Shown here: piece by piece, positions 1,515-25,789 of the stretch | How the letters are laid out: the number at the start of each line of letters is the position of its first letter | Position numbering within the stretch: the first letter of the stretch is position 1 | Notes under the pieces: model-generated | Told to the model about the DNA's origin: nothing | Databases searched by the model: none | What the model saw: only the letters and a program-made list of their open reading frames with translations | Translations under genes and position numbers: made by a program | Source of the DNA: Liolophura sinensis | Taxonomy: Eukaryota > Mollusca > Polyplacophora > Chitonida > Chitonidae | Direction: 5' to 3' | DNA: 64,000 nucleotides | Assembly: GCF_032854445.1 (NCBI RefSeq) | Contig: NC_088299.1 | Span: 6,733,001-6,797,000 of the forward strand

Positions 1515-2726
1515 GTTATAGAGTCATATTTATGACCACGAATTCTGTCCCACTGGAATCCAATGTACCCAAGGCACAAGACACGACCAGGTACGTGTTG
1601 ACTTTTGGCGACAAAGGACCAATGCAACCTGTAAATGTCGATTGTGTATTTGCTGGACCGTAAGTCTCCTGTAGGAGCTTTTTCGCCTATAATTTGTATT
1701 TTTTTATTTTTGTTTTTGATGGTTGGGAAAGGGGTGGGGGTGGGGTGGGAGGTAGGGGGAGGGCGAGGGGCTTGGAGGAGCATTTAATAGCCCTGCAATC
1801 GTCTCATTCGAGAGACGCTTTCCAGGTAAGGTCACATATGCTCGACGCCGTATTCATGAATTTTTCCTATAATACGATATTAATCAGTCTTACGGATGGA
1901 CGGAGCCGGAGTGCCCGGGGTGGACCACCGATCTTGGGCACTTAAGATCCTGACGAACTCCCACATTGGCTAAGTACAGCAGTGAGAGAGGAGGAATGTA
2001 CAAATTCTCTATCTAGAACAGGTTTTGACTTACATCTCTTATGCACCTCTTAGAAATTGAAATTCCACTGCATGGCCTCTGTCACGTTTCCACCACATTT
2101 AAAAACCTGACGACCCTTTAAATATACAGGTAAAGCATCGAGTATAGATTTTGTACGATATCTAAATACCGTGGTTTTAAACTGGTTTGCTAGGTCAAAC
2201 TGTACGCATGGAATGAATATATATAATACAATATATCTGTATATAAGTTTGCTTAATAGAGAAAACAAAACACTTTATACGCATCGATAAAGTATAATGA
2301 ACATAACTTTATATTTTTCCCATGCTGAATAATAAAGACATCAAAGTTCAAAGTAAGCAATAATTTCGCACAATGAGAAAGTCGGGTGCGCAACCATGGT
2401 ATCAGTTTTAACTAATCAGGAAGGAGTTATTTCTATGCGCAGCTGTTTCCACTGACGTCACCCGAACCCCTCTTTTTTCCTTAATTCCTTAATTCACAAG
2501 TGTGTAGGCTACGAGTGACGCGACACTGTGTATCCCATGACTTTGTAAGCATTACAGGTTAAAAGTTGATTCATAGAGTTACCAAGAAAGTCAGAACTAA
2601 ATGGTTGTGGATGTTCAGGTATGTTTCCTCCAATCATTGGAAACAACTATGGCGTTATACAATGTTTTGTCTTTCCATTTTAGTGAACACTTGATTGAGA
2701 CGCGTATATATAGGCCTACTTAAATA
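1515..2726. other. No recognised feature
   Basis: Contains a G-rich run near 1735-1765 and a TGACGTCA at about 2454. Nothing coding is supported. Confidence 0.6.
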
Positions 2727-2993
2727 TTTATTTATTTATTTGATTAGTGTTTTACGCGGTACTCAAGAATATTTCACTTATACGACGACGGCCAGCATTA
2801 TGGTGGGAGGAAACCGGGCAGAGCCCGGGGGAAACCCACGACCATCCGCAGGTTGCTGGCAGACCTCCCCACGTACGGCCGGAGAGGAAGCCAGCAGGAG
2901 CTGGACTTGAACTCACAGCGACCGCATTGTTGAGAGACTCCTGGGTCATTACGCTGCGCTAGTGCTCTAACCGACTGAGCCACGGAGGCTCCC
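2727..2993 (-). repeat. V-SINE-like element, full length
   Basis: On the minus strand: a tRNA-like head with A box (TGGCTCAGTCGGTTAG) and B box (GAGTTCAAGTCC), the V-type core (GTGGGTTTCCCCCGGGCTCT, CCTCCCACCATAATG), and a tail (GAATATTCTTGAGTACCGCG) ending in AAATA repeats. It resembles molluscan RUDI-type V-SINEs. Its open frames are not genes. Confidence 0.88.
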
Positions 2994-3076
2994 TTAAATA
3001 ATTATATTTATAGGATATATTTCAGGGTACTAAGAGTATTAATGCATCAAAGATCAATTGTAAACTAGGATCTGCT

Positions 3077-3168
3077 CAGCTTCCTCCCACCATAATGCTG
3101 GCTGATGTCGTATGCGTGAAATATTCTTGAGTACGGCGTAAAATATCAATCAAATAAATAAGTAATCA
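3077..3168 (+). repeat. V-SINE tail fragment
   Basis: CCTCCCACCATAATGCTGGC to AAATAAATAA; 5'-truncated. Confidence 0.85.
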
Positions 3169-3290
3169 TAAGTAAATCATAACCCATGCATGTTTATACC
3201 CATGCGGTCTCAATACTATGTATATATCCTAATTCCTCATATTTTTAGGACAGATATTAGAAGTGCTGAAAGCAAAGAATTATATATTTC

Positions 3291-3562
3291 TATTTATTTA
3301 TTTATTTTATTTGATTGGTGTTTTACGCCGTACTCAAGAATATTTCACTTATAAAACGGCGGCCAGCATTATGGTGGGAGGAAACCGAGCAGATCCTGGG
3401 GAAAATCCACGACCATCGGCAGGTTGTTGAAAGACCTTCCCACATACGGCCGGAGAGGAAGCCAGCATGAGCTGGACTTGAACTCACAGCGATCACATTG
3501 GTGAGAGACTCCTGGGTCATTACGCTGCGCTAGCGCGCTAACCAACTTAGCCAAGGAGACCC
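3291..3562 (-). repeat. V-SINE-like element, full length
   Basis: Head, core and tail all present, less than 300 bp from the copy at 2727 in the same direction. Confidence 0.88.
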
Positions 3563-5073
3563 CTATATATTTTTCTACTAGCTCTTTGTAAAAGTAAAGA
3601 TATGAATATGTTGTTCATTAGATGGACTAACCATGTGAAAAAAAAGCTAAATATTCATGTACACTGGCTAAAGTGAGCAGGCCAGGTGTCACAAAAAATA
3701 AAACAATTATACAGGGTGTGTTACTCCCCCGACTGATTATAGAAGTAGGCCTAGATGACCCATTCCTCTTATGCCATGCAAGTGCCAGGTCAAGACCTCG
3801 TGCAAGATAGACAATCTTTAGGTTTAATATGAGTATGATTCTACTGGATCTTGAACTCGCGTCTCTCTGCCATAAATACAAATTACCCCATGAATGAATG
3901 ATCGGGTTTAACGCCACGCTCTATAAATGTACGAGGCCGTCGCTGTAATTACCTATATCAGCCAGTGTTACATGTGCCGTCCTTCCTATATACGGGTTTC
4001 GATTGTATTTTTATAACTAGTCTAATATGTAATTATAAAGTAATTATAATCGTATAAGTAGCATTCAGTCAAATTAAAATATAAAATACTTTTATAAACT
4101 TATCTTATAATACGCCAGACGTAAGTGGAAAGCAGGTTGCAGATGGGCTGTGCCGGGTTTCCTCCCACCATGATTCTGGCCACCGTTGTATAAGTAAAAT
4201 ATAATCTTGCAAGAGTACGGCGTAAAACACCAATCAAATAAATAAATAAATAAATAAATGCGTCACTAAGTCTTTCTAGACAATATAACATTTCTTGATA
4301 ATTTTATTCATTAAAACATATATAGTAAACATAAAACTGGATATGGTTAGAATTTTCAGCATTTAATAAGGCAAAAGAAAAAGAAAAACAACAAAGGAAA
4401 AAGAAGTCCATGTATGACGATTTTCATACCAAGGGAGAGCACTGGTGTACCAGCTAGTGGTAAAAGTATCGATAAGGGGACATTACTCTAACATAACTAA
4501 ACACAAGACGACAACAAAACATCACAGGCTGACATTCTTGCAAACAAACCTATTTTTACCATATCAAGGAAAGGATCCTATCTAGAATTTGACATATACA
4601 TAATAAAACAAGCTAATAAAAGATACTCTCAAAAAGCAAATGTATTCCGTTTCGTACACATGTATGTGTTTGAGGGATGTAAACAAGGTGTGTATCACAG
4701 GAATACACAATTTGGTGCACAAAGCACACGTGTAGGTACGGCTTGTATAAAGATGATATATGCAAGGTACACATTATTGTTCCTGTGCAACTTGTTACGA
4801 TTATTGTGTTCCTGTGGTACATATCTATCATTTTGTACACACTTGCTTGTAGGGAGTACAGGCCTCGTCATATATATTGTGCGACCGTTTTGTGTGACAT
4901 GTTTCTACAGTGCATTTGTATGTATGGAGGCATTTAAAAATTTGCATTCAAACTTGTCAGTCAGCTTCCATGCATGCCCCATACGTTTGACCACATGAGT
5001 GTAACCATGACGGACTAAAGAACTCTTACCGATATCGGCCTACATCATTTCTTTCATCACATACATGTATGCT
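3563..5073. other. No gene seen; repeat fragments
   Basis: Besides the listed SINE piece at 4128, a stretch at 3870-3935 (GGGTTTAACGCCACGCTC) looks like another dispersed repeat. The rest is unassigned. Confidence 0.55.
4128..4259 (+). repeat. V-SINE 3' fragment
   Basis: Core end and tail with (AAAT)n. Confidence 0.82.
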
Positions 5074-5158
5074 CGGTTTCCTCCCACCCTAATGCTGGGC
5101 GCCGTCGTATAAATGAAATATTCTTGAGTACGGCGTAAAACACCAATCAAATAAATAT
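5074..5158 (+). repeat. V-SINE tail fragment
   Basis: CGGTTTCCTCCCACCCTAAT through AATAAATATA. Confidence 0.82.
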
Positions 5159-5273
5159 ATATAATAAAGTAAATAAACAAATAATGTATGTCTCTGGGCT
5201 ATTGATAATTTGTTTACGTAATTAAAGATATTGAATTATTGATATTTATTTATCTTATTAGTATCACGCCGTA

Positions 5274-5277
<4 letters not shown>

Positions 5278-5330
<53 letters not shown>
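5278..5330. repeat. TA microsatellite
   Basis: Pure (TA)n of about 50 bp. Confidence 0.95.
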
Positions 5331-5334
<4 letters not shown>

Positions 5335-5359
5335 GCAAAAATTCATGCAAGTAAGGAAA

Positions 5360-5517
5360 CATGACTGGTTGGCCCGGTGTCAGTATAATGTGACTGGGTG
5401 GAGTGTCATGTCTGTTGTCTTCGACATGACCCTTCACGGGTGGCAGCACTTTATCGGCATGAACTTGCTCTGCCACAAGAAGACACAGTAAACACACCTA
5501 ATGACTCCTCGTCATGC
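5360..5517 (+). repeat. Second SINE-like family, fragment
   Basis: Shares GGCCCGGTGTCAGTATAATG, TGTCATGTCTGTTGTCTTCG and CTAATGACTCCTCGTCAT with 27960-28200 and 34318-34585 (opposite strand). Confidence 0.65.
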
Positions 5518-5713
5518 TATGGCCTATACATAGGCCTACATATAATAATACATATTATTCATCAAGATGTGTATGCAAAACTACTGTGTCTGTGTTGTTA
5601 TGCCTACGTACGCTACATATCATGTATATGTTTGTACGAAAATTGCTTTTAGAGAGTTGAACTAAATAATTAGTAAAGTATTTTTGTTTGTTTTCGTGTT
5701 TCCTTCTTGTCAG

Positions 5714-5835
5714 CTACTAGCTGCCCTGATGTTTGTCCGAAAAATGGATCTTTGGCGTTCATTGTTTGCAGCGAAGATGAAGAAAAAAGACAGAACCTGA
5801 AGGGAGCAATACAAAAGGAGCTAGGCCTAGGATAA
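5714..5835 (+). CDS. Possible orphan terminal exon
   Basis: A strong polypyrimidine-AG acceptor (TTTCCTTCTTGTCAG) precedes a 39-codon frame with a coding look (SCPDVCPKNGSLAFIVCSED, then a Lys/Glu-rich helix). It ends at TAA, directly overlapped by a polyadenylation-like ATAAATAAA. It could be the last exon of a gene starting before this window or a chance frame. I do not recognise the family. Confidence 0.3.
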
Positions 5836-7284
5836 ATAAACGGCGCACGCTCTGCTTTTTTCAACACAGACCCAAAGAACAGTTGTATGTTAAATTAGCA
5901 AATGTCAGATGCTCAGATGAACCTGTTTCAATATAGGCATTTACTTTTGTCAGTGTCAGTCAGCACAAAACATCAACCTAAAAATTCATAAACTCGCGTC
6001 CCCTACACGCATTGTGACGTCACGGGCACCTGTGGATTCATTTGTTTACACACCGGTATCAACATTGTTCGTGACGTCAAACTCAGCTGGACATGAGGGG
6101 ATGCAGGTGGGGTTGATCGGGCTAACTCCCTCAGAACCACTAGTTTTGTCCCATCGTGAACCTCCTATTTAACCATGGCATCGTGATGTATTTCATGAAA
6201 CAGCCGTGCATACAGGTAACGCGTTCAAGGATATGTAATACGTACAGGCTTATATACAGGTCACCTGTCACGGATTTTGTAGAGAATACACGCATTATTT
6301 CAGTACAAAATATGAAACTGCTCAATGCATCTTATGTGTCAAAGATTTATTTTCATCTGATATGCATATATCTACCCCAGTAAACTCAGTGAAAATTTTG
6401 AATTTTTTCGAAATTTTAAATGTCAATCGACAAGTATAAACTCTGCCGACTTGGTATGTGTATATACTGCCTATATAGATGGCATGCGTTGAAGTTAAAC
6501 TCTCTCTGTACCTGGACTGAATTTCCTCCGGATTCGTGATTTTTCTTTGATTTTATATGATCTTAGATATTTCTGTAACTATGACTACATATCTGATATG
6601 ACCGAAAAATTGTATTTGAGCCACGCTAGACCCCATTAACATCCAATAATTAAACCCACTAAAACACACACACACACACACAAACAAAAAAAAAAGAAGC
6701 AAACAAACAAAATAAAAACTCTGTCGTAACATTTACTGTTTTATTATTATTTTAATTTTTTTATTTATTTATTTATTTATTCATTAATAAACTGTTTTGT
6801 TTACCTTTCCTTCATCAGGTTCTTTCACAAACCATTAGGTATTAATGGACTCCTGCACACCCGGGTGACCCAGTTTATTAACCAATGTAATACATGTTAA
6901 AATCCGCAACAATGTTCCCCTCACGGCAACAGTTGTCCGTTTCTCCGATAGCGAGAATATGCTACACGGGATGAGTTTACGTTTGTGGCCTATAGGCCTA
7001 CCCTTCTCAGCGTATCCTGTCGGGAGGTAAAAGAAAGAAAAAAAAAATCTTCTGGGGTATACACATAAAAACTGAAATTATGATGCCTAAATGCGAAGGA
7101 AATCATTATACATTAGAAATGTCGATGGCTATGCATGTCAGAAAAAAGTCACTGGCACCCAACACCAGTGATTGGCAAAAAAACAAAACAAAAAACGATC
7201 AACCCAAATCCAATCGAATTTTTGCTATTACTTTAGAACAGCTGTAATAATTACCCGTCACAAAAAATCGGTCTCTTCTATGTA
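5836..7284. other. Intergenic region upstream of the HLH-HMG-CW gene
   Basis: Two CRE palindromes near 6.0 kb, a CA tract at 6665-6683, T-rich runs near 6750. No exon supported. Confidence 0.55.
6015..6079. promoter_or_regulatory. Two CRE palindromes 57 bp apart
   Basis: TGACGTCA occurs at 6015-6022 and 6072-6079. Paired CRE sites are common in promoters. The next recognised gene begins 1.6 kb downstream, so the target is uncertain. Confidence 0.3.
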
Positions 7285-7500
7285 CGAGTGACCTGTGACG
7301 CAGTACAATGATTCAAGAGCCTCTCATCAGTGCAGTCGCCGTGAGTTCAAATCCAGCTCATGCTGGCTTTCTCTTCAGGCAGTCGTAAATGAGAAGGTCT
7401 GTCAACAATCTGTGGATGGTCGTGGGTTTCCATCTGTCTCAGCTCAGTTTTTTCCCACCATAATGCTTGCTGCAATGGTATAGTACGGGTATATTATAGT
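7285..7500 (+). repeat. V-SINE-like element, diverged
   Basis: GTGAGTTCAAATCCAGCTCA, GGATGGTCGTGGGTTTCC and CCACCATAATGCTTGCTGC; an old copy. Confidence 0.8.
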
Positions 7501-7678: not shown

Positions 7679-7889
7679 ATGAAATGTATAAAATGTACAA
7701 CACTGAAACATGTGTTCCATTTGTGGGACAGGTGGTCCACGCGGTTCTCGGTACAGCTCCACTCGGCAACATTCGTCAGTCATACAGCACATTTCACGGA
7801 GCATATCGAGGTAAACTTGAACGGCATTTCACCTGAGGAGACGGTGATTTCTATTCCAGTGGAGTTTCTCAAAGACGATACGATGTTGG
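7679..7889 (+). CDS. HLH-HMG-CW gene, candidate exon 1
   Basis: The ATG at 7679 follows an in-frame TGA (7676-7678) and opens a frame running to a GTAGGA donor at 7890, phase 1. The peptide ends in a stretch rich in beta-forming residues (ISIPVEFLKDDTMLG). Alternatively this is an internal exon starting after the AG at 7731-7732 (TTTGTGGGACAG), with the true start further upstream. No domain is recognised. Confidence 0.45.
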
Positions 7890-10800
7890 GTAGGAAATAA
7901 TTCACTCCCAGTTCTATAATATACTTGCTGTCTGTCAGTTTGCATTGTTGCTGTTCGTTTGTTTGTGCTGAATCTGGGATATTCCAGCAAAACCGTTTCC
8001 GCAAATACTAATACCATGCTATTTGTTTTTTACTCATCCGTTCAATAATGTATGTTTTTTCTTGAATCGTTATTTGCAAGTATATGCATTTTCAGGGGAT
8101 TACAACAGTTCCGATGAAGACGTAATGGAAACCGTGGATCCAGCCAGGTGGCTTGTGATTACGCCGACGTGAATGGCGTCGTGGGAATTTCAGCGGAGCG
8201 TGGAAGCCATTTTCCGTTTTTTAAGAAGCCAGTCAAAAATTTCGCTGCAGTAACTGTTATACATGCGGTGTTTGCGGAAGATTGTAATAATATGTCATTG
8301 TGAAAGGAATCTGGAAAATGCTGAGAGAATAGGTGTATTTGGAAATGAGTTAGGCAAAACCATGTCATTGGCGAGTTTTTAGTCTCTATCAGTGGTAAAA
8401 AATAAAAACATTTCTCAATCTAAAATCTTTGTAGTATTTTATATACCTTCCAAAACTAAAACCTCAGTTTTAGAAATCCGCTTGCAGGTAATATCATATC
8501 GAACGACGATGGCAGTAATTTTTCACCACACGTGTCTTCTCTGATCGTACCGTTGGGAGCGAGACGCAAATCCAGGGGAAATTTTTTTAAACATGTGATT
8601 GTGAATATTTAATCAAGAATAAGGGCTTTCCAACTTCATAAGCTGTGTATAGAGATGAAATGTTTTTTTTTACTTAAATTAGCCAACCATGAAATTCATG
8701 TATTTGAATGCATTTTTGTGTTGTAAAAAGAAAAACAATATTAAATCTACAATCACTAATGGACAAGTGTAGAACTGAACAGAGGGGTAAATTTTTAAGA
8801 AAGTACTTATCTTTGATTCTTAGTTTCATTATTCCTGGGATTTTTTTCTTTCTTCTTTTTTTTTTTTTTTGGATCCTGGCAAATTGTGTAAATACATTAC
8901 CACATAATATTCGAAACATAGTATTTCATACTTTTCATGACAGTGATATGATACAAGCACCTTGTCATACCACAAAGTTTCGGGTAAGGGTTAACCTCAT
9001 GTTAGTGACATGCAAATGTTACACCATAGATGTGACAGATAAGATGCTTCCTACTTGTTAAAATTATTGTTAAGTATATTAAAATTATTTGTCTAATCAC
9101 TGATGTCATGAAACTGCAGTTGAATTTCATGTTATTGCTGCTATTCTATGTAGTAAATAAGTACCAAAGTTGGAATACAAGCCAGTTACAGATCTTGCAT
9201 TTATGGGGTTAACATATACTGGAAAGTTCCTCTCTGACCATGCATAGGAAGGTCTGACAGCAACCTGCGGATAATCGTGGGTTTCCCAACTCTCACCATA
9301 ATGCTGGCCACCATTGTATAAGTAAATATTCTTGAGTACAGCATAAAACATCAATCAAATAAATCAGTAAATATATACTGGACAGATAACTTGTGAAAAC
9401 CATGTCACAATGACTGTACAAATTATTTCAACCCTGAAACCCTCTGACCATGACTATCTGATAGGAAAAAACTTATCTTCTAAAAACCATGTCGGTTTAA
9501 CTCATGAGAACTATTTTGTTTATTAAAACCATGCCACTTTCACTCTTGGTAAACCACTTGAAAACCATTCATAAGTAATTTTCCGTCATGGGAATCATTT
9601 AACTATAAATGTAACCTATGACAACAAATGTCAGTAAGGATTAAGTCCATACCACAGACTTTTGCATTCTGCTTCATTTTGTTTGTGTTTTTTTATGAGT
9701 ACCATACTGCTCAATATATGCATAAATATTCTACACTACTCATGAAAAAATATAAAATTCATGAGAACCTTATTGTTCATGCAAAAATATGAAATTAATG
9801 ACAACCACACTGCTCATGCAGACATAGTCCTTTCATGAGAACCACACTGCTCATACAAAAATATACCATTAATGAGAACTATACTGCTCATGCAAAAATA
9901 TTCCATTAATGAGAGACATACTGCTCATACAAAAATATTCCATTCATGGAGCCATACTCCTGAAGCAAAAATACTCCATTCCTAAGAACCATATAGCTAT
10001 GCAAAATGTGGCATTCATGAGAACCATACTGCTATGCAAAATGTGGCATTCATGAGAACGCATTCATGAGAACCATACTGCTATGCAAAATGTGGCATTC
10101 CTGAGAACCATACTGCTATGCAAAATGTGACATTCATGAGAACCACACTGCTATGCAAAATGTGACATTCATGAGAACCATACTGCTATGCAAAATGTGG
10201 CATTCGTGAGAACCACACTGCTATGCAAAATGTGGCATTAATGAGAACCATACTGCTATGCAAAATGTGGCATTCATGAGAACCACACTGCTATGCAAAA
10301 TGTGGCATTCATGAGAACCATACTGCTATGCAAAATGTGGCATTCATGAGAACCATACTGCTATGCAAAATGTGGCATTCATGAGAACCATACTGCTATG
10401 CAAAATGTGGCATTCATGAGAACCACACTGCTATGCAAAATGTGGCATTCCTGAGAACCATACTGCTATGCAAAATGTGGCATTCGTGAGAACCATACTG
10501 CTATACAAAATGCGACATTCATGAGAATCACACTGCTATGCAAAATGAGACATTCATGAGAATCACACTGCTATGCAAAATGAGACATTCATGAGAGCTA
10601 TACAGCTCAAGCAAAATGTTGCATTCATGAAAATGACAAAATTAAGAGGGTGATGTATAGTTTTCTTTTTTTCATCAAAGTGTCTGTCTCATTCCTGCCA
10701 TAGGTAAAATTTTGAACAGTTTATTAGCGCATATTGTTTTCTTTCTCAGGAAGTGACTGACATGTGCGACAGAGTGCTGGATAGACTGGCAATGTTGCTG

Positions 10801-13800
10801 CCTACTCCATATTCCTATCAACTTCACAGTGAAGACAGGATGGTAACAACAGTTTTCTAATGACACTTATCTTGAGATAAGTTTTCAATATCCACTGAAT
10901 AAAGACATTAGTAAACACTTTCAGGATAATCTATGTTAATATTGAAACAGACGAAGATGGTGTCTAAGATGTTATTTTTCATAGATTTTGCATTGTTGCT
11001 GGCTGGTTTTTACATAACAAAAATTTGGCATACCTTCATATTAACTACAATTTGGGTCTGCCAGATTACAAGAGCATTTTATGTTTAACAAACATACTCA
11101 AACCTTTCTAGTTGATTGTTATTCATGCATGTCAAGAAATGGGCCCAAATAAGGCGTAAACGGTAATTTACCAAAGTTTTGTTACCTACATTTTTCTCTT
11201 TCAAATTGTTTCTTAAGGGCAAGTCAAAAAGACATTTCCAAAATCAGTGGTCTGCATTTTGATTTCCAAACAACACATTCATTCCCTGCTGAACAGAGGT
11301 CAAAATGTTTGGTTCTTTGGTGTAAATAAAAAATTCGAACATGTGAAGTCTACCCCTAGGTGTGGTAAGGGTGTGGGAGTCATTTGGCCTAATAAATATT
11401 TTCTTTTCTCTGTGCAAATTATTGTTCTGGTCTCTCAGATGAAGTGATCTGTTAGATTCAGGATATAGAGCTGCCTACCTTGCTTACATGGGAGAGTTAA
11501 CTCCCCTATTCATTTCTTGGTATATACATACACAAGTACATGCATATCAGGATGGATATAGCTATAGTTATTTTTCAGTACCACATGAAAACTCATAGCT
11601 GCATGACAAATTTACATTTAATGGATGGAGAAGTTTAATTTATTTTTTGATGAACTAAAATCAAATTGAGGTCATCATAAATTATATATTTTTAGACTTA
11701 GAAATTTCAGATTTCAGAGTTTAATTTTCCCAGACATGTACAGAGTAATGGACAGGGCTAAGGTTTAATCTGTTTTATTTTGCCAAACGCTTGTATATAA
11801 GGCATATAATGAATGTAATATTGCCATGAGACAGCCATAGCAGGAATCTTATTTGTTAGGTATCTGTTGCTTTCTTCCTATACCATATGATCAAGCCAGG
11901 AAGCCATGCTGTTGTGTTCACTTTGTTAATACTTGTAGATTGTCAGCCTGGGGTTTATACTTTTTGGCATTTCATGATATTAGAGTGAGATTTATATTAA
12001 AGGATTCAAGAAAAGTAACTTGAAGATTTTAAATAAGATTATGGTTTTGTAGAAAACTGTGGCAGATTTCATTTTTTGGGACATACTTTATTTAGCCATA
12101 TGGTGCATATTTTTTATGAGGGTCAGGCAACTTCAGAATATTATGTCTGCAATGAAATTGATGAGGTAGACCTGCTTATTATGAGGGTCAGGCAACTTCA
12201 GAATATTATGTCTGCAATGAAATTGATGAGGTAGACCTGCTTATTATGAGGGTCAGGCAACTTCAGAATATTATGTCTGCAATGAAATTGATGAGGTAGA
12301 CCTGCTTATTATGAGGGTCAGGCAACTTCAGAATATTATGTCTGCAATGAAATTGATGAGGTAGACCTGCTTATTATGAGGGTCAGGCAACTTCAGAATA
12401 TTATGTCTGCAATGAAATTGATGAGGTAGACCTGCTTGTTCTGACTTCCGTCACAGAATTGTCACAGTCACGCTTGACTGAAGGCTACTTAATTTTTGAC
12501 TGACCACTGGGAGCTGTGGAAGACTAATTTAAAGCCATTTTGACCGATCAAGAACTGTTCTGTACGTTTATATACAATGCTTGTATTAACCACAAATCCT
12601 TAAACTCTATATTAAGAAATAAAAAGCATGTTTCATCAGTCCTTTCAAACAAGGTGAATTCAGTGAGACAGTCCCTCTCCAGGGAAACGCGGAGTAATCA
12701 TGGACCCGAAATAATTCTGAATGTGATATCAAAGGCAATGTGACAAATTTTGTTTGCTGTTTATGTTGTAAATTTTGTCTTTGGCTTATTTCCAGAGAAA
12801 TACACACCATCACGGATGCTATAACATGTAGTGTGTTTTGTTCATGGCAGGCAGCCATTGTGAGTGGTGCTGTTGACTACATCTCTTACCTGCAAGGCTT
12901 CGCCTTTCTGTCAGACCCGGCCTCCTGCTCATCAAGTGACAGCGGAGGGAGTGTCTGCCAAGAGGCGAGTGACGTCGAGAGCCAATCAAGTCCCACCAGC
13001 AGTCAGGGATCCTGTAGAACCTTCCTTGCAAAATGTACGATTTATTTATTTATTTGTGTGTTTGTTTGTTTGTTTGTTTTAAGCCATACTCAAGAATATT
13101 TCACTTGTATGACAGCTTATAAGGGAGTTATCAGAATGAATAAAAATATAGAGATATATTACCTCCCTTTGTTGTATTATCACTGCACGTGGAACTAGGA
13201 GAGTTATTTCCCATGTTTGTCTCTTGTCTCATATACAGTGTATACGTAAGCCTGTCATTCTTCATGATGGATATGCATGCAGTCATTGTTTAACAGAGTG
13301 GAAACTGAAAACTTTACGGATGGACAAGTAATGATTTTTGTGTTTTTAATATTTGGGGGTGGGAGACTTGAGAGTGTTTTCACTATTAGAGATTTTATAG
13401 CATCATTTTGTCACAGTTAATTGGTATTCAGTTCACATTTTATCTGACAGCAGCAGAGCCTAAGAGGCCTAAGAATGGCTTCATCCGATTTTCAATTGAA
13501 CAACGGCGATGGCTTTCTGTAGATCACCCTAAACTTGACAACAGAGAAATCTCCAGGATGTTGGGAGCTAAATGGCGGAAAATGACGACAGAGGAAAGAA
13601 AACCCTATGAGTGAGTTCATACTGTAGTTGTTGAGAAAGATTTGAGAATGACAGAAATATAAAATCTTCATAAGCAGAAAGGAAAACTGAATGTATGGAA
13701 TGAACAAATGAGCGCATATGATCCATATGACTGATCTGGAACATATTCCTGCTGTTTACTACAACTACTGATTATTAAAGTTGAGCTTTTTTTTTTTTTA

Positions 13801-16800
13801 AGTGACACATTTTACGTCATTCTGATTGATTTATTCATCTTATAGAACCGCTTTGTTGTTTTTGTGAAGTTTGGTGGATTTGAGTTGGCATCACCAGTGT
13901 CATTGACTTAAAGGCCATTATGGGCCTTTATTAGATGAAACACATTATTCTTGAACATCATACAATTACGGTTTCAGAGATGAGTTTGAGATGGACATGA
14001 AATTAATCCGTGAAAACTTCCCAGGGTGGCGATATGCACCAATGAAGAAAGGAGCGCAGGAGCTAATAGAGCCTATGCCTACACGTCTGAGAGACAGGCG
14101 TTGCTTGAAAAGAAAGGCAGGTTTAATTATTAGGATTTACAGATCTGTAGCCCTATCAAAGAATTTACGAAGGGTCTTGCAGTCAGTACAAAAAGTGAGG
14201 CTCTTATTATCAACGAAACCGTAGATCTGCTTGAACCTTTATGGGATTGCCACCCAGCAAAATTAGAAGTCTGAAATTTGTAATATGAATGGAACAGAAG
14301 ACCCATCTGTGCCTTTACAGAATATTCTTCCAGCAAGTTCGGTGTATGAGATTTTAAATATCAGTGGAACCTATCTGTGCCATTACAGAATGGTCGTCCA
14401 TGAAAATCCAGTGTATTATATTTTTATTATCAACAAAACCCGTAGATCTGCTTGAACTTTTATGGAATGGCCGTCCAGCAAAATCAGAAGTCTGAAATTT
14501 GTGATATTAATGGAACCATTAAATTTTGATTATCAGCGAAAGCCTGGACACATATGAGACTTTACAAAATGGTCTTCCAGAAAATCTAATGGAACCCTAG
14601 TCTCATCATTGCCTTTGCAGAAGGCCTTTCCAGCCACTCAAATATATCTGATTTTGAATTCTAGCAGATCTCATCTTTGCCTTTACATAAAGGTCTTCCA
14701 GCAGATGCGGTGGTTCTTCAAAGAATTTAAATAATAATGGAAGTCTAGCCCCAAATGAGCCTTTACTGACAGGTCTTCCAACAAATAAAATGTGTGATAT
14801 TTTTAATATTATTGGAACCCTAACCCCATTTTCGCCTTTACAGAAAGGTCTTCCAACAAATCCTGTGTATGAGTTTGTAAAATTCAGTGGAACCTTATCC
14901 CCATCTTTGCCATTACAGAAAATTTTTCCAGCCAATTAAACTCCAAAGCTACTGTTTGTCGTTCACAATTTGGTAACGCTGTGAGGATTGTTCTGTTGTC
15001 TGACATACTGTGATTTCGGCGGCGATTATTAGCTGTAGTTCAAAGAATTATTATTCACAGTTCTTCATATCCCGATTCAGTCCCATGTTATAATTTTTCA
15101 CCTTGTTGTCTGCTTCCAACTGCCCTAGGCGAGAGTGCGGACATGTGCGATCTCGTAATGTTATCCTCTGTCATCCTCATCCTCTGTCGTCTGTCCCCTC
15201 CATCTCCCGTGGCTCGATCTCCTAATATGCTTCTACTCTAAAGCTCAACAAGTAGATCAGGTTGGGTTGTCGTCTGAGATTGTTCCAACGTTAGGTTTAG
15301 CAAAATTTTGTTTGGCCAAGGAGACCCCAAACCAACTTCAGTGCGCACTCCATTAAGAGACATGATACAATTATCCGTGGCAGCGTGTTTTAGACAAAAA
15401 TTACCCATCAAATCGTCTCCACGGCCTTAAATTTATCAGTTGATGTTTTGCAAACATAAGATCTGTTATTTCCTCGGTCACGTGGGTCGGATCTAGATTC
15501 CTTGGTGATGCTCAAAAAGTAACCCACAATAATGACAGTCTCGACATATTTGACAGGTAGGCCCAATGTTAAGCTGGACCATTAAGGTGCGCTATCTGTT
15601 GTTAGCATTTCTAGCAATAGTTTGCATCTAAATAGCATTCCTCAGTGCAATCCCATTTTACAATATATTTGCTAATTAGCATTTCAAATCCACATTAAAT
15701 GGTTGTAAACTAGCATCACCAGAAGATTATATTTACCTTAGAATTTCAAAGTATTGTCTAATTAGATGCCAGGGTAAGTAATCAACACAATATACTTACT
15801 AATTAGCAATTTCAGAGTATTATCTAAATTTATGCTTGATATCACTGCGAGGATCTTGTAACTCTTACATCACAATATATTTGCTAATTAGCAATCTGAA
15901 AGTATTGTCTAAATAGTTGGTATTTATCACTACCAGGATCATGTTATCTTTACAACACAATATATTTGCTAATTAGGAATTTAAAACTAGTTCATCCAGA
16001 TCAGTTTTCAGGCATATTTATAATGTATTTACACTGATTTCTAAAATGTGTACATTAATATTTCTAATAGTGAGATATACTTACTAGTTTCACAACTTTG
16101 CATTCTGCAATTAATAGCATAATACACAGTTCAGTTTTCTAGGTTACACAAGCAATGTAGGACCACTGGCCTTGCAACACGCCCCATTTTAAACTTATGT
16201 GCCTACTCATCTTGGCAAAATGTATTTTACTAGACAACGGAATTATAGCAGTGCTAATTAGCAAATATTTTGTCCCACCAAAAAACTGCAGGAATTTACT
16301 CCTTGATACAGCGATAAATATTTAGTTTGTACATAGTGCTATTCCAGCAGTGCTTGTCCTTTTAACACATCCACACAGATGGCCTGATAGTTAGCTTCTA
16401 CATAGTGCTATCATAGAAGCCCTAAATCTGCACAACTGGCCTCTTTGAAAGTTAGCTTCTAGATAGCGATATCACATCAGTGCTAAAAGACAAATCTGCA
16501 TAGAATGTCTCTTTGATAGTTAGCTTCTACATAATGCTATCACACAAGCGCTAAATAACAAATATATTGTCCTCTCAACATATCTGCTTAGAGCATCTCT
16601 TCGATAGTTAGCTTCTACATAGTGCTATCATAGCAGCGCCAAATGGCAAATATAATGCTCTTCCAGAAAATCTGTACAGCAGGCCTCTTCAATAGTTAGC
16701 TTCTACATAGTGCTATCGTAACAGCACTAAATGGCAAATATATTGCTCTTGCAGAAAATCTGCAGAGCAGGCCTCTTTGATAGTTAGCTTTTACATAGTG

Positions 16801-19800
16801 ACACTCTAGCAGTCCTATAAATATCATACATTGGTTTGTCTACTAATCTGCTGAACTGGTATCTCTGATAGTTAGCTTCTACATAGTGCTATCATAGCAG
16901 CGCTAAATAACAAATATATTGCCCTTCAAACAATTCTGAACAGATGGCCTCTCTGATAGCTGGCGTCTACCTGGCGCTATCATAGCAGCGCTAAAGACCG
17001 AATATATTGTCATAAGCAGATCTGCTCAGATGGTTTCCTTGATAGTTCGCTTACACATAGGGCTATCATAGCAGGACTAAATCTGTACTAATCAGCGCCT
17101 ATACTTCCCTGTCCTGAAAATCTGCCAGTGAGTATCCCTACATTGCACAGACACACACATGCAACCATAGCTAAATAGCAGTGAACATTAAAACAGGAGA
17201 AGAAAAATGGCAAAATATCTGTAAATTATTGTCTGGAAAAATAATTAGCACCATGTTAATAAAATGAGGAGAGAAAAGTTTAGCAGAGAAAAAGCAGATA
17301 GTGAACTAACTCAGCTGGACGTTCCTACAATAACGCCCAGCTTCGGTCATATAGACTTCCACGCGGACAATTTCACTAAAAAAAACCCGGCTCGAACCCT
17401 ACCTTATTTTTGCTATCCACTAAAACGACCGAAATGTAATATGTCAAAGTCAACATTGGTCAACCATCTGGCAACAATGATCCAGCCATTTAAACTTTCG
17501 AATCGGACAACTCAAATCAACGTCTGCCATGTTTGGAATTTTTTTTCAAATTCGGGCAAGGTGATGGGCCGCGAAAATTTTATCCTACCCAGGATTCTCT
17601 TCAAGAAATGCATGCCCTGTAAACAGAATGTTGGGTGCGATAAGATTTTCACCCAGACTGAAGAGGAAAAAAATTTCCAAACATGACAGACGTTGATTTG
17701 AGTTGTCCGACTCGAAAGTTTGAACGGCTGGATTATTGTTAAGATAGTAAGATGGTTTACCAATGCTGGCTCAAATCAGCGTTTGCCATATTTGGATTTT
17801 TTTTTTCTTTTCAACGCCGAGCAAAGTGATGGGCCACGAAAATTTTATCCTAAAAGTGATTGCATGCCCTGTAAAAAGAATGCTGGGCGGGATAAAACTT
17901 GGCGGCCCATCACCCTGCCTGAAGATGAAAAAAGAAAAATCCAAACATGGCAGACGTTGATTTCAGATATCCGATTCGAAAGTTTAAATGGCTGGATTAC
18001 CTTTGAAAGATGGTTAACCAATGCTGGCTTTTACGGAATCTGTGGATATCAAAAATAACGTAGGGTTCGAGCCGGGCTTTTTAGGGGAAATTGTCGGCGT
18101 GGAAGTCTATAGGACCGAAGCTTGGCATTACGGTAGGAGCGTCCAGCTTAGCTGTGGGCTATACGGGTAGTTATGTCGACCAGATTGCATTATTACTAAA
18201 AGGTAGCTTGCTTTATTCAATATAGTTCTCATTTAAATAGATTCCACCAGTGAATGAAATTCTGGGCAAAAAAAAGCCGAGGTCTAGCAAAAGACGAATT
18301 GCACGAGCAGGAGGGAATCTATGGATTAAGTGTTCATTGTGCCGGAAGTGGAGGAAACTAGCAGCCTCTGCCGATCCAGCCTCTCTTCCAGAACAGTGGT
18401 GCGTAACAGTTACTCCTGTTAAGTTGCCTAAAATTACCTGTACTTTATTCCTAGAATTCGTACCCCTGTACCTAGGAATCTGATCTTTAGCCCATGGGTA
18501 AGTAAAAACTATACCAGAAGAACAAAAAAAAGAGTAATGCACATGGAGGTTTCCGGCCGTGGTGAATTACAGCAATCACTCTAGAATTTGCTAAAAGCAC
18601 ACATACAAAAGTGATTTATTTATTCACCTATACAACTCCAGACAGCACTATAGTGGGTCTGTGTGTGGTGGGTTGGGGGGGGGGGGTGCGTCATTTAACT
18701 GGGCAGAACCCATGGGCACCCACGACTATCCGCAGGTTGCTGGGAATCCTTCCCATATTCAGCCGGAGAGGAAGCCAGCATGAGCTGGATTTGAACTCTC
18801 AACGACCACATTTGTGAGAGGCTCCTGGGATATTGAACCGCACTACCTTGGCCACAGAGGTCCTACAAAACTTATCGTTCTACTTGTAATATAATTATGA
18901 GAATGTTGTCTAATCTATGCCTTCCCAGATCAGAGACATCTAGGTGTTGTTTCATTTCTAAATGATATTTAAATGGGTCATTATGCCGTACGCTCGTAAT
19001 ATCAATGGATATTAACTCGCCATCGCTTTCACTGTTAATGAAAAGCAATCTGCGAGATTATCCACGGGTATAATGAGCGTGACTACGAAATATAAAATTA
19101 TACTTACCTTTCCAGATATGGGATGGGAAAATGTAGTAAAAAAATTTCCTGTTTGTTATACTGTCGCTGTAAAGATCATGATCAAAACAGAGCTTACCTT
19201 AATTCCTCAATCATTTCGAATATGAAAGAACAACTTTCAGTGAAATTTATGCACATTTGTAATTTTGATTTTGGAGACAAAACTACATTGGTTGGATTGG
19301 CCAGTTTCAGGGCTTTACAAAAGCCATAATTGTATCAGTCAGCATAAAGTAATGAATTCAGAATATGCTTGAATAAACACCTTGCAAACATACGAAAGGG
19401 TTGAAGAATTACTGTAACAGTAATGTATTAAACTTCTAGTCAGCTTATGATTCGCTTTCCGTCTAGCTTGCTGATTATTGCCACCCATTCTTGAGTATTA
19501 CTGGGGTTTATAGGAGTTTTGTGGTAAAAAATCGATTAAGGCAAAGCCAGTCAAATTTTCCTGTTATCTTGGAATAGCCCAAATAATTATCTTTCAAAAA
19601 TATTAGCCTCGCCTGTGCATGTAGCACCCTTCAAAATCAGTACCATAATAAAATTGCGAAAAAGTTTTAAAGCTGTTCACATCATAACTTTTGCAAACTT
19701 TAGGATCATTGTATTGAATGAAATTAATGCGTGCAACATATGTTCAGAATTTGTGGAATTCCTCACTGCACTGCTCTCGTATCGGGATTAACTGCATTGT

Positions 19801-19953
19801 TTTTTAGACCAGATATCCTAATTTATTTTCATTTTTATTCTCTACAGGTACTGTGCACTGAATCCAGATTTTAGATTCAACAATTGCGACACGCCACAAC
19901 AAAACAGTTTATCCAACTCACCCGATGCAGATGATTTCTTGTCAGTTATATAA
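7679..19953 (+). CDS. MEIOSIN: MEIOSIN-like HLH / HMG-box / CW zinc-finger protein (spliced, 9 exons)
   Basis: Predicted nuclear transcription and chromatin protein. Exons 7679-7889, 8096-8147, 8468-8594, 10750-10842, 12851-13034, 13451-13610, 13978-14120, 18251-18398 and 19848-19953 have AG/GT borders, matching phases at every junction, and sum to 1224 nt (407 codons plus stop). Residues about 120-178 form a (b)HLH, 226-297 an HMG box, and 347-390 a CW finger with Cys 351, 354, 375, 386 and Trp 348, 357, 373. Known: HLH plus HMG box occurs in vertebrate MEIOSIN (BHMG1) and, less clearly, STRA8, which together switch on meiotic genes; CW fingers elsewhere read H3K4 methylation. Inferred: this is the molluscan MEIOSIN-like gene carrying a CW reader. 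Exons 4 to 9 are well supported. Exons 1 to 3 rest on phase and composition, and further 5' exons may exist. A STRA8-like or lineage-specific gene is the alternative. Confidence 0.72.
8096..8147 (+). CDS. HLH-HMG-CW gene, candidate exon 2 (acidic)
   Basis: The 52-nt exon has an acceptor after TTTTCAG and a GTGGCT donor. It is read in phase from exon 1 and encodes an acidic stretch (GDYNSSDEDVMETVDPA). The phase fits both neighbours. Confidence 0.45.
8468..8594 (+). CDS. HLH-HMG-CW gene, candidate exon 3 (basic region)
   Basis: The exon runs from the acceptor ACCTCAG to a weak GTGATT donor. Its last residues (GARRKSRGNFFKH) place an Asn exactly 22 residues before the Pro that ends helix 1 in exon 4, the spacing seen in canonical bHLH proteins. 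The usual Glu of the ER pair is absent, so DNA contact by this region may be weak or atypical. Confidence 0.45.
9225..9366 (+). repeat. V-SINE 3' half in intron 3
   Basis: Core and tail, ending ATCAATCAAATAAAT. Confidence 0.82.
9700..10625. repeat. 35-bp minisatellite in intron 3 of the HLH-HMG-CW gene
   Basis: The unit begins ATGTGGCATTCATGAGAACC and repeats every 35 bp, cleanly between about 10000 and 10600 and degenerate before that. About 25 units. Confidence 0.93.
10750..10842 (+). CDS. HLH-HMG-CW gene, exon 4 (HLH helix 1 and loop)
   Basis: The 31-codon, phase 0/0 exon lies between TTTCTTTCTCAG and GTAACA. The peptide VTDMCDRVLDRLAMLLP fits HLH helix 1, with a loop (TPYSYQLHSEDRM) after it. 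It joins helix 2 in exon 5 without a frame change. Confidence 0.75.
12116..12440. repeat. 65-bp tandem repeat, 5 units, in intron 4
   Basis: Starts at 12116, 12181, 12246, 12311 and 12376 (ATGAGGGTCAGGCAACTTCA...). The units are virtually identical, so the array is young. Confidence 0.95.
12851..13034 (+). CDS. HLH-HMG-CW gene, exon 5 (HLH helix 2, Ser-rich linker)
   Basis: The exon starts after TCATGGCAG and ends at donor GTACGA, phase 1. It begins AAIVSGAVDYISYLQGF, a typical HLH helix 2, and continues into a Ser/Gln/Asp-rich linker to the HMG box. A SINE tail starts within a few bases of the donor, so the first intronic bases are now SINE-derived. Confidence 0.8.
13040..13120 (-). repeat. 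V-SINE tail fragment at the exon 5 donor
   Basis: TTTATTTATTTATTTGTG and CATACTCAAGAATATTTCAC begin within 6-10 bp of the splice donor at 13035. Confidence 0.7.
13451..13610 (+). CDS. HLH-HMG-CW gene, exon 6 (HMG box, first part)
   Basis: This encodes the start of an HMG box: PKRPKNGFIRFSIEQRRWL, then LGAKWRKMTTEERKPYE. The Pro-Lys-Arg-Pro opening, the aromatic Phe pair and the W-x4-T-x-EERKPYE stretch match SOX/HMG boxes. The donor is GTGAGT in phase 2. Confidence 0.92.
13978..14120 (+). CDS. HLH-HMG-CW gene, exon 7 (HMG box, end)
   Basis: It continues the HMG box in phase (DEFEMDMKLIRENFPGWRYAP), which resembles helix 3 and the Y-x-Y-x-P end of HMG boxes. A basic tail follows (RLRDRRCLKRKA), possibly a nuclear localisation signal. 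The donor is GTTTAA, phase 1. Confidence 0.88.
14220..14940. repeat. Degenerate tandem repeat in intron 7
   Basis: The motif CTTTACAGAAAGGTCTTCCA with GTGTATGAGATTTT and AGTGGAACC recurs irregularly about every 80-90 bp. Confidence 0.75.
15600..16000. repeat. Degenerate repeat of about 85 bp in intron 7
   Basis: CAATATATTTGCTAATTAGC recurs near 15660, 15790, 15875 and 15957. Confidence 0.75.
16380..17080. repeat. 88-89-bp minisatellite in intron 7
   Basis: GATAGTTAGCTTCTACATAG followed by TGCTATCATAGCAGCGCTAA recurs near 16513, 16602, 16691, 16780, 16868, 16958 and 17040. Confidence 0.85.
17313..18148. mobile_element. Palindromic foldback / MITE-like element in intron 7
   Basis: The ends are inverted copies: AGCTGGACGTTCCTAC at 17313 and the reverse complement of GTAGGAGCGTCCAGCT at 18148, continuing inward (CTATAGACTTCCACGC, GCCCGGCTCGAACCCTAC). 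The arms continue to about 17580 and 17880. Inside are two further imperfect palindromic modules with GTGATGGGCC and CGTCTGCCATGTTTGG. No coding capacity and no clear target duplication. Confidence 0.8.
18251..18398 (+). CDS. HLH-HMG-CW gene, exon 8 (CW finger, first half)
   Basis: It begins with a Lys/Arg-rich segment (KKKPRSSKRRIARAG) and then the CW start LWIKCSLCRKWRKLA, ending LPEQ plus two bases of a Trp codon. The phase matches exon 7 across a 4.1-kb intron. Confidence 0.93.
18612..18864 (-). repeat. V-SINE-like element in intron 8
   Basis: The tRNA-like head (reverse GCCACAGAGGTCC), B box and core are present; the tail is degenerate and contains a G run. Confidence 0.8.
19848..19953 (+). 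CDS. HLH-HMG-CW gene, exon 9 (CW finger, second half, stop)
   Basis: The exon begins after TTCTCTACAG. It completes the Trp and gives YCALNPDFRFNNCDTP, the conserved second half of a CW domain with the third and fourth zinc Cys. It ends after an acidic tail (SPDADDFLSVI) at TAA 19951-19953. Confidence 0.93.
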
Positions 19954-20189: not shown

Positions 20190-20790
20190 CCGGCTGATTT
20201 GGCGGAAAAGCATTGCAAACCTGCTGGAGGTAGGCGAAGAGCATTGCAATCTGCTGAATGTAGGCAAAGAGCATTACAAACCTGCTGAATGTATGCGAAG
20301 AGCATTGAAACCTGCTGAATGTAGGCAAAGAGCATTGCAACCTGCTGAACTTAGGCGAGGAACATTGCAAACCTGCCGAACGTAGGGGGAGAGCAGTGCA
20401 ACCTGCTGAATGTAGGCGAAGAGCATTGCAAATCTGCAGAATGTAGGCGAATAGCATTACAAACCAGTTGAATGTAGGCGAAGAGCATTGCAACCTGCTG
20501 ACTGTAGGCGAAGAGCATTGCAAACCTGCTGAATGTAGGTGAAGAGCATTGCAAACCTGCTGAACTTAGGTGAAGAATATTGTGACCAAGTGAACTGGGT
20601 GAAGAACATGCATGGCATCGTGCCAAATTGGGCAGATAACATGCATTGGAACCTTCTGAGACAGGCGAAGAACACTTAATGTTGGCCAAGAACATTGCAG
20701 TCTTCTAAATTGGCCAAAGAACATGCATTGCAAACCTGCTGAACGTGGGCGAAGAGCATTGCAACCTGATGAATGCACAGTGATTTTCAC
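20190..20790. repeat. 30-31-bp minisatellite downstream of CW exon
   Basis: GAAGAGCATTGCAACCTGCT then GAATGTAGGC, about 18-20 degenerate units. It probably lies in the 3' UTR of the HLH-HMG-CW gene. Confidence 0.92.
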
Positions 20791-21046: not shown

Positions 21047-21055
21047 AATAAAGAC
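21047..21055 (+). terminator. Candidate polyadenylation signal (AATAAA)
   Basis: GAATAAAGAC followed by a GT/T-rich stretch (CCAGTTTTGTTATTTT) lies about 1.1 kb past the stop of the HLH-HMG-CW gene. It would give a long 3' UTR containing the 30-bp minisatellite. Confidence 0.4.
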
Positions 21056-22230: not shown

Positions 22231-24080
22231 TAACAAGATGGACGGTACTTGATGTGTGCACCCCGGACTGACAACTTTATGAAATTACATGTAGGTATGT
22301 ACACTCTGTATGGACAACGAGTTGGTAACTGGTGTGTCCACTCTGGGTTAACAAAAAGGATGACACATGTAGTTCGTGTGTTCACTCTGAGCTGGACGCC
22401 ACTCTCAATCTGGGCGGTCACACCTGATGATACTTGATGTGTCCAGTCTAGGTTCACACAATAGATGACATTTAGAGTGCCCAATCATGGTTGACACACA
22501 GCATGGTACTCGGTGTGCCCACTCATTTTTGACACAGTAGGTGATACTTGTTGTGTCCAATCTGTGTTGACGAACCGGATGGAATTTGGTGCGTACAGTC
22601 TGTCTTGACAACTGGATGGCGCCTGGGGTGGACACTCTGTCTTGACAACTGGATGACGCCTGGTGTGTACAGTCTGTCTTGACAACTGAATGGTGCCTGA
22701 TGTTTACATTCTGTCTTGACAACTGGATGGCGCCTGGTGTTTACAGTCTGTCTTGACAACTGGATGGCGCCAAGTGTGTACACTCTGTCTTGACAACTAG
22801 ATGTCGCCAGGTGTGTACACTCTGTCTTGACAACTGGATGGCGCCTGGTGTGGACACTCTCTGTTGACAACTGGATGATGCCTGCTGTGTACTGTCTGTA
22901 TTGACAACTGGATGGCGCCTGGTGTGTACACTCTGTCTTGACAACTGGATGGCGCCTGGTGTTCACAGTCTGTCTTGACAACTGGATGGCGCCTGGTGTT
23001 TATAGTTTGTCTTGACAACTGGATGGCGCCTGGTGTGGACACTCTGTCTTGACAACTGGATGAGGCCTGGTGCGTACAGTCTGTCTTGACAACTGGATGG
23101 CGCCTGGTGTTTGACAACTGGATGGCGCCTGGTGTTTATAGTTTGTCTTGACAACTGGATGGCGCCTGGTGTGGACACTCTGTCTTGACAACTGGATGAG
23201 GCCTGGTGTGTACTGTCTGTCTTGACAACAGGATGAGGCCTGGTGCGTACAGTCTGTCTTGACAACTGGATGGCGCCTGGTGTTTACAGTCTGTCTTGAC
23301 AACTGGATGGCGCCTGGTGTGTACACTCTGTCTTGACAACTGGATGACGCCTGGTGTGTACTGTCTGTCTTGACAACTGGATGGCGCCTGGTGTTTACAG
23401 TCTGTCTTGACAACTGGATGGCGCCATGTGTGTACACTCTGTCTTGACAACTGGATGGCGCCATGTGTGTACTGTCTGTCTTGACAACTGGATGGTGCCT
23501 GGTGTTTACAGTCTGTCTTGACAACTGGATGGCGCCTGGTGTTTATAGTTTGTCTTGACAACTGGATGGCGCCTGGTGTGGACACTCTGTCTTGACAACT
23601 GGATGAGGCCTGCTGTGTACTGTCGGTTTTGACAACTGGATGAGGCCTGGTGTGTACAGTCTGTCTTCACAACTGGATGGCGCCTGGTGTGTACAGTCTG
23701 TCTTGACAACTGATGGCGCCTGGTGTGTACACTCTGTCTTGACAACTGGATGACGCCTGGTGTGCACTGTCTGTCTTGACAACTGGATGTGTACATTTTT
23801 TCTTGACAACTGGATGGCGCCATGTGTGTACTGTCTGTCTTGACAACTGAATGCGCCTGCTGTGTACAGTCTGTCTTGACAACTGGATGGTGCCTGGTGT
23901 TTACAGTCTGTCCTGACAATTGGATGGCACCAGATGTAGACAGTCTGTCTGGATGGCGCCTGGTGTTTACTGTCTGTTTGACAACTGGATGGCGCCTGGT
24001 GTTTGACAACTGGATGGCGCCTGGTGTGTACACTCTGTCTTGACAACTGGGATGGCGCCTAGTGTGTATGCTCTGCATGG
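22230..24080. repeat. 37-bp minisatellite
   Basis: The unit reads GATGGCGCCTGGTGTTTACA then GTCTGTCTTGACAACTG, about 48 units, with intermediate forms at the left end. All long frames here are repeat artefacts. Confidence 0.95.
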
Positions 24081-25750: not shown

Positions 25751-25789
25751 ATTGTTCATTTAACGGCAGTAGTTTTCTTATTGTACATG

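Follow-up and report, generated by a model that had tools for sequence, protein, structure and literature searches.

A predicted chiton gene joining a candidate HLH, an HMG box and a CW finger, and its possible kinship to STRA8 and MEIOSIN

The locus and its gene model

The window, the whole 64,000-nucleotide stretch of DNA analysed here, is part of scaffold_13 of the assembly of the chiton Liolophura sinensis, which confirms the molluscan origin given to the gene in the first-pass annotation. RNA-seq exists for this chiton from gonad (SAMN35319768) and four further tissues. Nine exons on the + strand, from 7679 to 19953, fit together in phase, each of the eight introns being bounded by GT and AG, and the spliced model yields a 405-residue frame with a TAA stop. 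That annotation supplied the two ends of the gene together with its joins at 14120/18251 and 18398/19848; the other exon borders were assigned in our analysis. Splice sites were weighted with approximate metazoan frequencies, and the bit scores are relative to these. Codon-usage scoring was trained on 55 of 60 kinase loci, with the strand chosen by a motif rule, and null draws were taken from the introns of the gene and from positions 2001-7500 of the window. For exons of more than 45 codons, the score per codon was compared with 45-codon null draws. Alternative N-terminal exon chains were sought in a rough search, from which 12 chains were listed.

Exon 1 (7679-7889) has a GT donor in phase 1 and an uncertain ATG at 7679. 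Its codon score was exceeded by 256 of 1500 null draws and is thus not clearly above intron; its 3' part (7860-7889), retained in all 12 chains listed, is the better-supported piece. Exon 2 (8096-8147) encodes an acidic linker and is bordered by an 8.8-bit acceptor and a 5.9-bit donor. Its codon score was surpassed in 7 of 1500 null draws, and its start at 8096 recurs in 12 of the 12 chains listed. The uncertain exon 3 (8474-8594), whose phases fit, would encode a basic stretch before the HLH. It has a second in-frame end at 8600, its exact borders occur in one of the 12 chains listed, and its codon score is again not clearly above intron (252/1500 null draws higher). The candidate helix 1 and loop of the HLH are located in exon 4 (10750-10842; acceptor 11.3 bits; 41/1500 null draws higher), and the candidate helix 2, with a sub-cut-off match to PF00010, is followed by a Ser-rich linker in exon 5 (12851-13034). 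In the rough search, other N-terminal chains outscore the one modelled here. The nine phase-compatible exons proposed at first hold together as GT/AG-bordered pieces of one frame, but exon 3 and the first part of exon 1 are uncertain and have no codon-usage support.

The first part of the HMG box is encoded by exon 6 (13451-13610), which alone scored 59.1 bits against PF00505 in a whole-genome scan, and the remainder by exon 7 (13978-14120, with an alternative in-frame end at 14194). Exon 8 (18251-18398, with an alternative in-frame start at 18241) carries a basic stretch and the first half of the CW finger; alone it scores 29.0 bits against PF07496, above the cut-off. Exon 9 (19848-19953; acceptor 11.8 bits) supplies the second half of the finger, the C terminus and the TAA, and its codon usage gives no support (703/1500 null draws higher). 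A likely polyadenylation signal, AATAAA, lies at 21047-21052 on the same strand. Further AATAAA motifs are present at 21301 and 21399, and an ATTAAA at 20846.

A search of the chiton genome with the gene gave 16 matches at E<=0.1 (all 23 candidates scored), six of which are its own exons. The remaining 10 are at most 43% identical and cover HMG-region or CW-region stretches only. Neither a second copy of the gene nor a processed copy attesting the exon joins was found among the 16 matches. Scans of viral contigs (4 pattern matches) and of contigs from prokaryotic genomes (47 pattern matches) returned no relatives, and no report of an HLH-HMG-CW fusion was found among the open-licence papers listed.

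The HMG box and the candidate HLH

The HMG box read in exons 6 and 7 is borne out by its Pfam profile. In the whole protein, HMG_box (PF00505) matches residues 224-292 with 64.7 bits (E 1.1e-17), well above the cut-off of 25.4. The box lies C-terminal to the candidate HLH, a membership feature of the MEIOSIN/STRA8 family. Its best PDB matches in phmmer are SRY and SOX proteins, and it therefore does not point to MEIOSIN in particular. Of the other HMG matches in the genome, the one with the highest score is 38% identical and reads as a SOX protein by eye. SOX proteins have a SOX-type HMG box and neither HLH nor CW finger; a SOX identity was ruled out because the chiton box, although SRY/SOX-like, is followed by a CW finger.

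The candidate HLH occupies approximately residues 117-174, encoded by exons 3-5. Compared alone with PF00010, this stretch scores 12.1 bits (E 0.18) on helix 2 only, below the curated cut-off of 20.7. A Pfam scan of the whole 405-residue protein at E up to 10 gave no HLH row, and a PDB search with the stretch returned no match in the same range. Against a home-made profile of 30 HLH domains from the Liolophura sinensis genome, the stretch scores 5.4 bits, and one of 1000 shuffles scored higher. An HLH upstream of the HMG box is at most suggested by these scores, and the HLH of the first-pass annotation is kept as a candidate, short of a Pfam-level domain.

MEIOSIN, BHMG1 and Gm4969 are names of one gene. 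Excerpts of two papers (PMC9604137; PMC6392498) attribute bHLH and HMG domains to STRA8 and MEIOSIN, in agreement with the earlier proposal that an HLH combined with an HMG box marks this family. MEIOSIN is proposed in the former excerpt to be a DNA-binding switch for meiotic genes. As portrayed there, MEIOSIN resembles the chiton protein in its HMG box and, if the divergent, sub-cut-off chiton candidate is one, in its HLH; the chiton protein differs in its additional C-terminal CW finger. Passages from the MEIOSIN literature, including those from PMC9604137, make no mention of a CW finger. In STRA8, as excerpted, an HLH near the N terminus precedes a predicted HMG box, the same order as that of the candidate HLH and the HMG box in the chiton protein; the STRA8 box is a Phyre2 prediction only (PMC6392498, excerpt). 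Mouse STRA8 combines a Glu-rich stretch with a Phyre2-level HMG box, whereas the chiton protein has a strong HMG box and then a CW finger. Among molluscs, the scallop gene ncbi_110441893, named for the HLH and HMG pair, is described in an excerpt of PMC6708199 as a hub of the male gonad with male-gonad bias; its likeness to the chiton gene is one of name. Excerpts of PMC13083884 and PMC8589329 contain nothing on invertebrate MEIOSIN, and those of a sea urchin paper name no sea urchin STRA8.

We propose, with a probability of roughly 0.55, that the product of this single-copy gene, with HLH, HMG box and CW finger, is a germline transcription factor of the STRA8/MEIOSIN type; its role would be meiotic. 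The alternative that survives best, though we regard it as unlikely, is an HMG-CW fusion that acts as a chromatin or transcription factor and is not orthologous to STRA8/MEIOSIN; its apparent HLH would be helical by chance, and its role would lie outside meiosis. Such a factor would fit the sub-cut-off HLH score, the empty whole-protein and PDB searches for this domain, and an HMG box nearest to SRY and SOX. It is harder to reconcile with a stretch that beats 999 of 1000 shuffles and precedes the HMG box as in the excerpted description of STRA8, or with the gonad bias of the scallop namesake.

The CW finger and its join to the HMG box

The CW finger assigned to exons 8 and 9 is equally secure. 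zf-CW (PF07496) matches with 53.3 bits (E 2.8e-14; cut-off 27.5), and the four zinc cysteines (C349, C352, C373 and C384), the cage tryptophans W346 and W355 and the core tryptophan W371 are all present. The join 18398/19848 within the finger also fits the model: its borders are GT/AG, the phases fit, the acceptor is strong and the zf-CW alignment spans it to residue 389. W346 and W355, the floor and wall of the aromatic cage, align with the pocket residues W410 and W419 of MORC3. The spacing of 9 between them is shared with MORC3 and MORC4, and 23 of 46 aligned residues are identical to the MORC3 CW finger (6o5w). The histone-binding cage thus appears intact, and the finger may read H3K4 methylation. 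A reading in which the domains are real but the CW finger has a purely structural role and binds no histone is rather unlikely. Some CW fingers do behave in this way: that of MORC2, which lacks the floor tryptophan, binds no histone, and residues outside the aromatic cage also matter according to an excerpt of PMC9043364. In the chiton finger, however, both cage tryptophans are kept at the MORC3 spacing, and half of the aligned residues are shared with MORC3.

Two families with CW fingers were considered as identities for the gene and rejected. MORC proteins have a GHKL ATPase before the CW finger, which the chiton predicted protein does not; HATPase_c_3 has three matches in the genome and none in the window, and a MORC identity was ruled out on these grounds. 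An apparent separate MORC-type gene is located on C1 (CW at 49548535, HATPase at 49542824). The CW finger of ZCWPW1 is linked to meiosis in an excerpt of PMC7314539; its tryptophans (256 and 267) are spaced by 11, compared with 9 in the chiton finger. ZCWPW1/2 were ruled out since no PWWP follows the CW finger, the chiton protein ending 16 residues after the CW match, and none of the seven PWWP matches in the genome falls in the window.

The computation shows one continuous frame that holds both a significant HMG box and a significant CW finger, each above its curated cut-off in the same 405-residue product, as the first-pass annotation had claimed. The exact join between exons 7 and 8 is another matter. 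The proposed 14120/18251 is GT/AG and in frame, but it is doubtful because its sites are the weakest of the model (donor 1.1 bits, acceptor 3.6 bits) and a better in-frame pair exists at 14194/18241 (donor 7.3 bits, acceptor 7.7 bits). The latter join adds 28 residues, extending the reading frame to 1302 nt, and the 24 scored codons of the extra stretch give -5.7 bits in codon usage. It keeps both domains (HMG box E 7.2e-18, CW E 1.6e-14), so the HMG-CW fusion survives with either join.

The intron between them, intron 7, is ~4.1 kb long and rich in repeats. A foldback element at 17310-18151 (+ strand) separates the HMG-box exons from the CW exons; its inverted arms (17310-17383 and 18078-18151) are 85% complementary, and a genome search in which 40 of 494 candidates were scored gave at least 94 rows that match it, many of them being the same place on both strands. 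Extra-exon candidates in the intron number none at strict site scores and two at looser scores after 14120, and one (15977-16069) and five, respectively, after 14194. In the frame of exon 8, the codon at 18238-18240 is a stop and no Met precedes the CW finger; exon 8 must therefore join something upstream. With an even spread of exons, a CW exon would be found within 4.1 kb downstream of an HMG exon on the same strand with a chance of ~0.0005, or ~0.003 if counted per neighbouring gene; both estimates are built on exon counts of 6 and 27, which are lower bounds and include the gene itself. The adjacency of the HMG box and the CW finger is more than chance. Two adjacent genes, one with HLH and HMG box that stops within intron 7 and another with the CW finger that starts between 14.2 and 18.2 kb, would suit the weak 14120/18251 sites and the long repeat-filled intron, but are improbable given the upstream stop and missing Met of exon 8, the good-scoring in-frame pair 14194/18241 and this low chance of adjacency.

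A possible route to meiotic promoters

The start of meiosis in animals outside vertebrates is poorly known. If the chiton protein is of the STRA8/MEIOSIN type, its HLH would pair with a partner, the HMG box would grip and bend promoter DNA, and the CW finger would keep the complex on nucleosomes bearing H3K4 methylation. Active or poised promoters would then be bound through DNA and histone simultaneously and could be switched on at meiotic entry. Whether STRA8 and MEIOSIN act by open-promoter binding and polymerase recruitment or otherwise is described as an open question in an excerpt of a review (PMC9604137).

The HLH and HMG pair is already known from the excerpted accounts of STRA8 and MEIOSIN, and the added CW finger sets the chiton protein apart. 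If a switch for meiosis does carry its own H3K4-methyl reader, a direct connection from promoter chromatin to meiotic entry could be tested in a mollusc, and the gene would help to trace where the STRA8/MEIOSIN pair came from. More speculatively, and in our view unlikely, the ancestral meiotic initiator of animals may have been an HLH-HMG-CW protein able to locate H3K4-methylated promoters by itself. In vertebrates it would have been split into STRA8 and MEIOSIN, with loss of the CW finger and promoter choice left to other factors, whereas the chiton would have kept the ancestral form of the gene.

In mouse, 97% of STRA8-bound genes have CpG-island promoters (PMC6392498, excerpt). The STRA8 motif CNCCTCAG occurs nine times in the window, compared with 3.8 expected. 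This excess was set aside as evidence for a STRA8 link because five of the nine sites are clustered at 24.1-24.5 kb; one other site lies in exon 1.

Exon model of the gene

The window derives from the chiton Liolophura sinensis, in agreement with the molluscan source guessed in the first-pass annotation; the species name of the assembly was later corrected by its authors from Liolophura japonica (PMC12441733). The assembly (G000) comprises 609 Mb in 632 contigs, and the window corresponds to G000:C5:6733001-6797000. On the forward strand, nine exons at 7679-19953 give a 1218-nt coding sequence of 405 residues with a TAA stop. Their proposed phase compatibility holds, with GT/AG borders and a single frame throughout. 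The GC content is 0.39-0.55 in the exons vs 0.33-0.38 in the introns. A codon-usage model was built from kinase and HLH loci of this genome (55 of 60 used), with 1500 stop-free non-coding draws as the null. It favours exons 2, 4, 5, 6, 7 and 8, for which 7, 41, 100, 62, 40 and 96 draws scored higher, respectively. It gives no support for exon 1 (256 of 1500 draws higher), exon 3 (252) or exon 9 (703). Exon 9 is accepted despite this result because the CW match covers it, while exons 1 and 3 are candidate exons with no rescue from any other line. In a small chain search, 7860-7889 and the exon starting at 8096 were kept in 12 of the 12 chains listed and the remainder varied; several N-terminal chains outscored a chain with exon 3. 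The N terminus of the model is therefore only provisional. The locus very probably represents a genuine gene whose set of domains is unusual, and no second copy was found in its own genome.

HMG box and CW finger in one frame

One frame holds both an HMG box and a CW finger. Profile searches of the 405-residue protein confirmed both proposed domains: HMG_box scored 64.7 bits and covered all 69 Pfam profile positions, and zf-CW scored 53.3 bits and covered 45 of 47. In phmmer searches against PDB chains, the HMG box has SRY and SOX proteins as its top matches and the CW finger has MORC3 (best 60 of 93 sequences).

The two domains were originally joined at 14120/18251. This join fits in phase, but its splice sites are the weakest of the model, with 1.1 bits for the donor (66th percentile of GT sites) and 3.6 bits for the acceptor (70th percentile of AG sites). 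The pair 14194/18241 is likewise in frame and scores 7.3 and 7.7 bits; it adds 28 residues, and the 24 codons scored among them resemble non-coding sequence (-5.7 bits). On this rough scale the second join is favoured by a few bits, and the domains are identical with either. Exon 8 cannot begin a protein, because its frame carries a stop at 18238-18240 and no Met precedes the CW finger. Scanning intron 7 for additional stop-free exons yielded, with strict site scores, 0 candidates after 14120 and 1 after 14194, and with looser scores 2 and 5. An additional exon may therefore exist, though the fusion would survive it. We infer that a single transcript crosses the fusion. A foldback repeat at 17310-18151 inside intron 7 yielded at least 94 matching rows across the genome from the scoring of 40 of 494 candidates; many of these rows are the same place on both strands.

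CW fingers are described as carrying four cysteines that bind zinc together with three tryptophans, of which a pair makes the methyl-lysine pocket (PMC9043364). All seven residues are present in the chiton finger. Its pocket tryptophan spacing of 9 is that reported for MORC3, whereas ZCWPW1 is reported to have 11, and 23 of 46 aligned residues are identical to the MORC3 CW finger. MORC4 is reported to bind H3K4me3 with a Kd of ~0.1 uM (PMC7596504). MORC2 is described as lacking both the floor tryptophan and histone binding (PMC5811534), whereas the chiton finger keeps both pocket tryptophans. Among the other CW exons of this genome (at least five), the spacing is 9 in L002 and 11 in L001, L004 and L005; L003 did not match the tryptophan-spacing pattern. 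An HATPase exon lies 5.5 kb from L002 on the same strand, so L002 seems to belong to a separate MORC-type gene. No PWWP match, as a ZCWPW1 gene would have, was found near L001.

Comparison with MEIOSIN and STRA8

The proposed HLH gave no Pfam row in the scan of the 405-residue protein. Searched alone, the stretch scored 12.1 bits (E 0.18), below the cut-off of 20.7, and a PDB search up to E 10 found nothing matching it. With a profile built from 30 HLH domains in the same genome it reached only 5.4 bits, and one shuffle in 1000 did better. By eye, the pattern appears HLH-like with a poor basic region. An HLH ahead of the HMG box is probable, at a score below the Pfam threshold.

According to one review, MEIOSIN and STRA8 both have bHLH and HMG domains and have in common a promoter motif distinct from the E-box (PMC9604137). 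In STRA8, the HLH is reported to span residues 28-79 and residues ~216-268 are predicted to form an HMG box (PMC6392498 appendix, section 40), an order also seen in the chiton gene with its candidate HLH. Because the HMG box and the domain order agree while the HLH is below cut-off, we call the gene MEIOSIN/STRA8-like, not MEIOSIN.

CpG-island promoters are typically H3K4-methylated. In mouse, 97% of STRA8-bound genes were reported to have CpG-island promoters (PMC6392498). A yesso scallop gene named for HLH and HMG box is reported as a hub gene, its module being at a much higher level in male gonads (PMC6708199); its likeness to the chiton gene is by name, not by sequence. Based on the MEIOSIN/STRA8 domains, CpG-island promoter binding and the scallop hub, the simplest mechanism would be a meiotic activator that dimerises, binds DNA and also holds an H3K4-methyl mark, for which a partner, target, histone mark and timing are presumed. 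A meiotic regulator with a chromatin reader is plausible but unproven. For the H3K4-reading meiotic driver in the first-pass annotation, the single frame of HMG box and CW finger and the presence of the cage tryptophans are supported, while the reading and the meiotic role are conjectural. No published report of this fusion was found in the open-licence literature.

Repeats and other features of the window

Tandem arrays lie within intron 3 (9735-10630, 35 bp unit) and intron 4 (12114-12444, 65 bp unit) of the gene. A 31 bp array at 20205-20576, in the likely 3' untranslated stretch, is upstream of an AATAAA at 21047. Three forward-strand copies of a coiled-coil protein piece with a hydrophobic start (30434-30994, 37395-37985 and 54458-55048) matched no Pfam family above its own cut-off. 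The latter two have 175 of 197 residues in common; the first has 95 and 100 of 172 in common with them, respectively. A retroelement at 43746-47395 on the forward strand contains several open frames and an RVT_1 match (4.6e-20); its integrase match is weak, below cut-off. Further arrays occupy 22552-24068 (37 bp unit), 25772-27001 (72 bp), 39112-40288 (28 bp) and 52247-53829 (48 bp), the last with long repeat-made open frames (547 and 569 residues).
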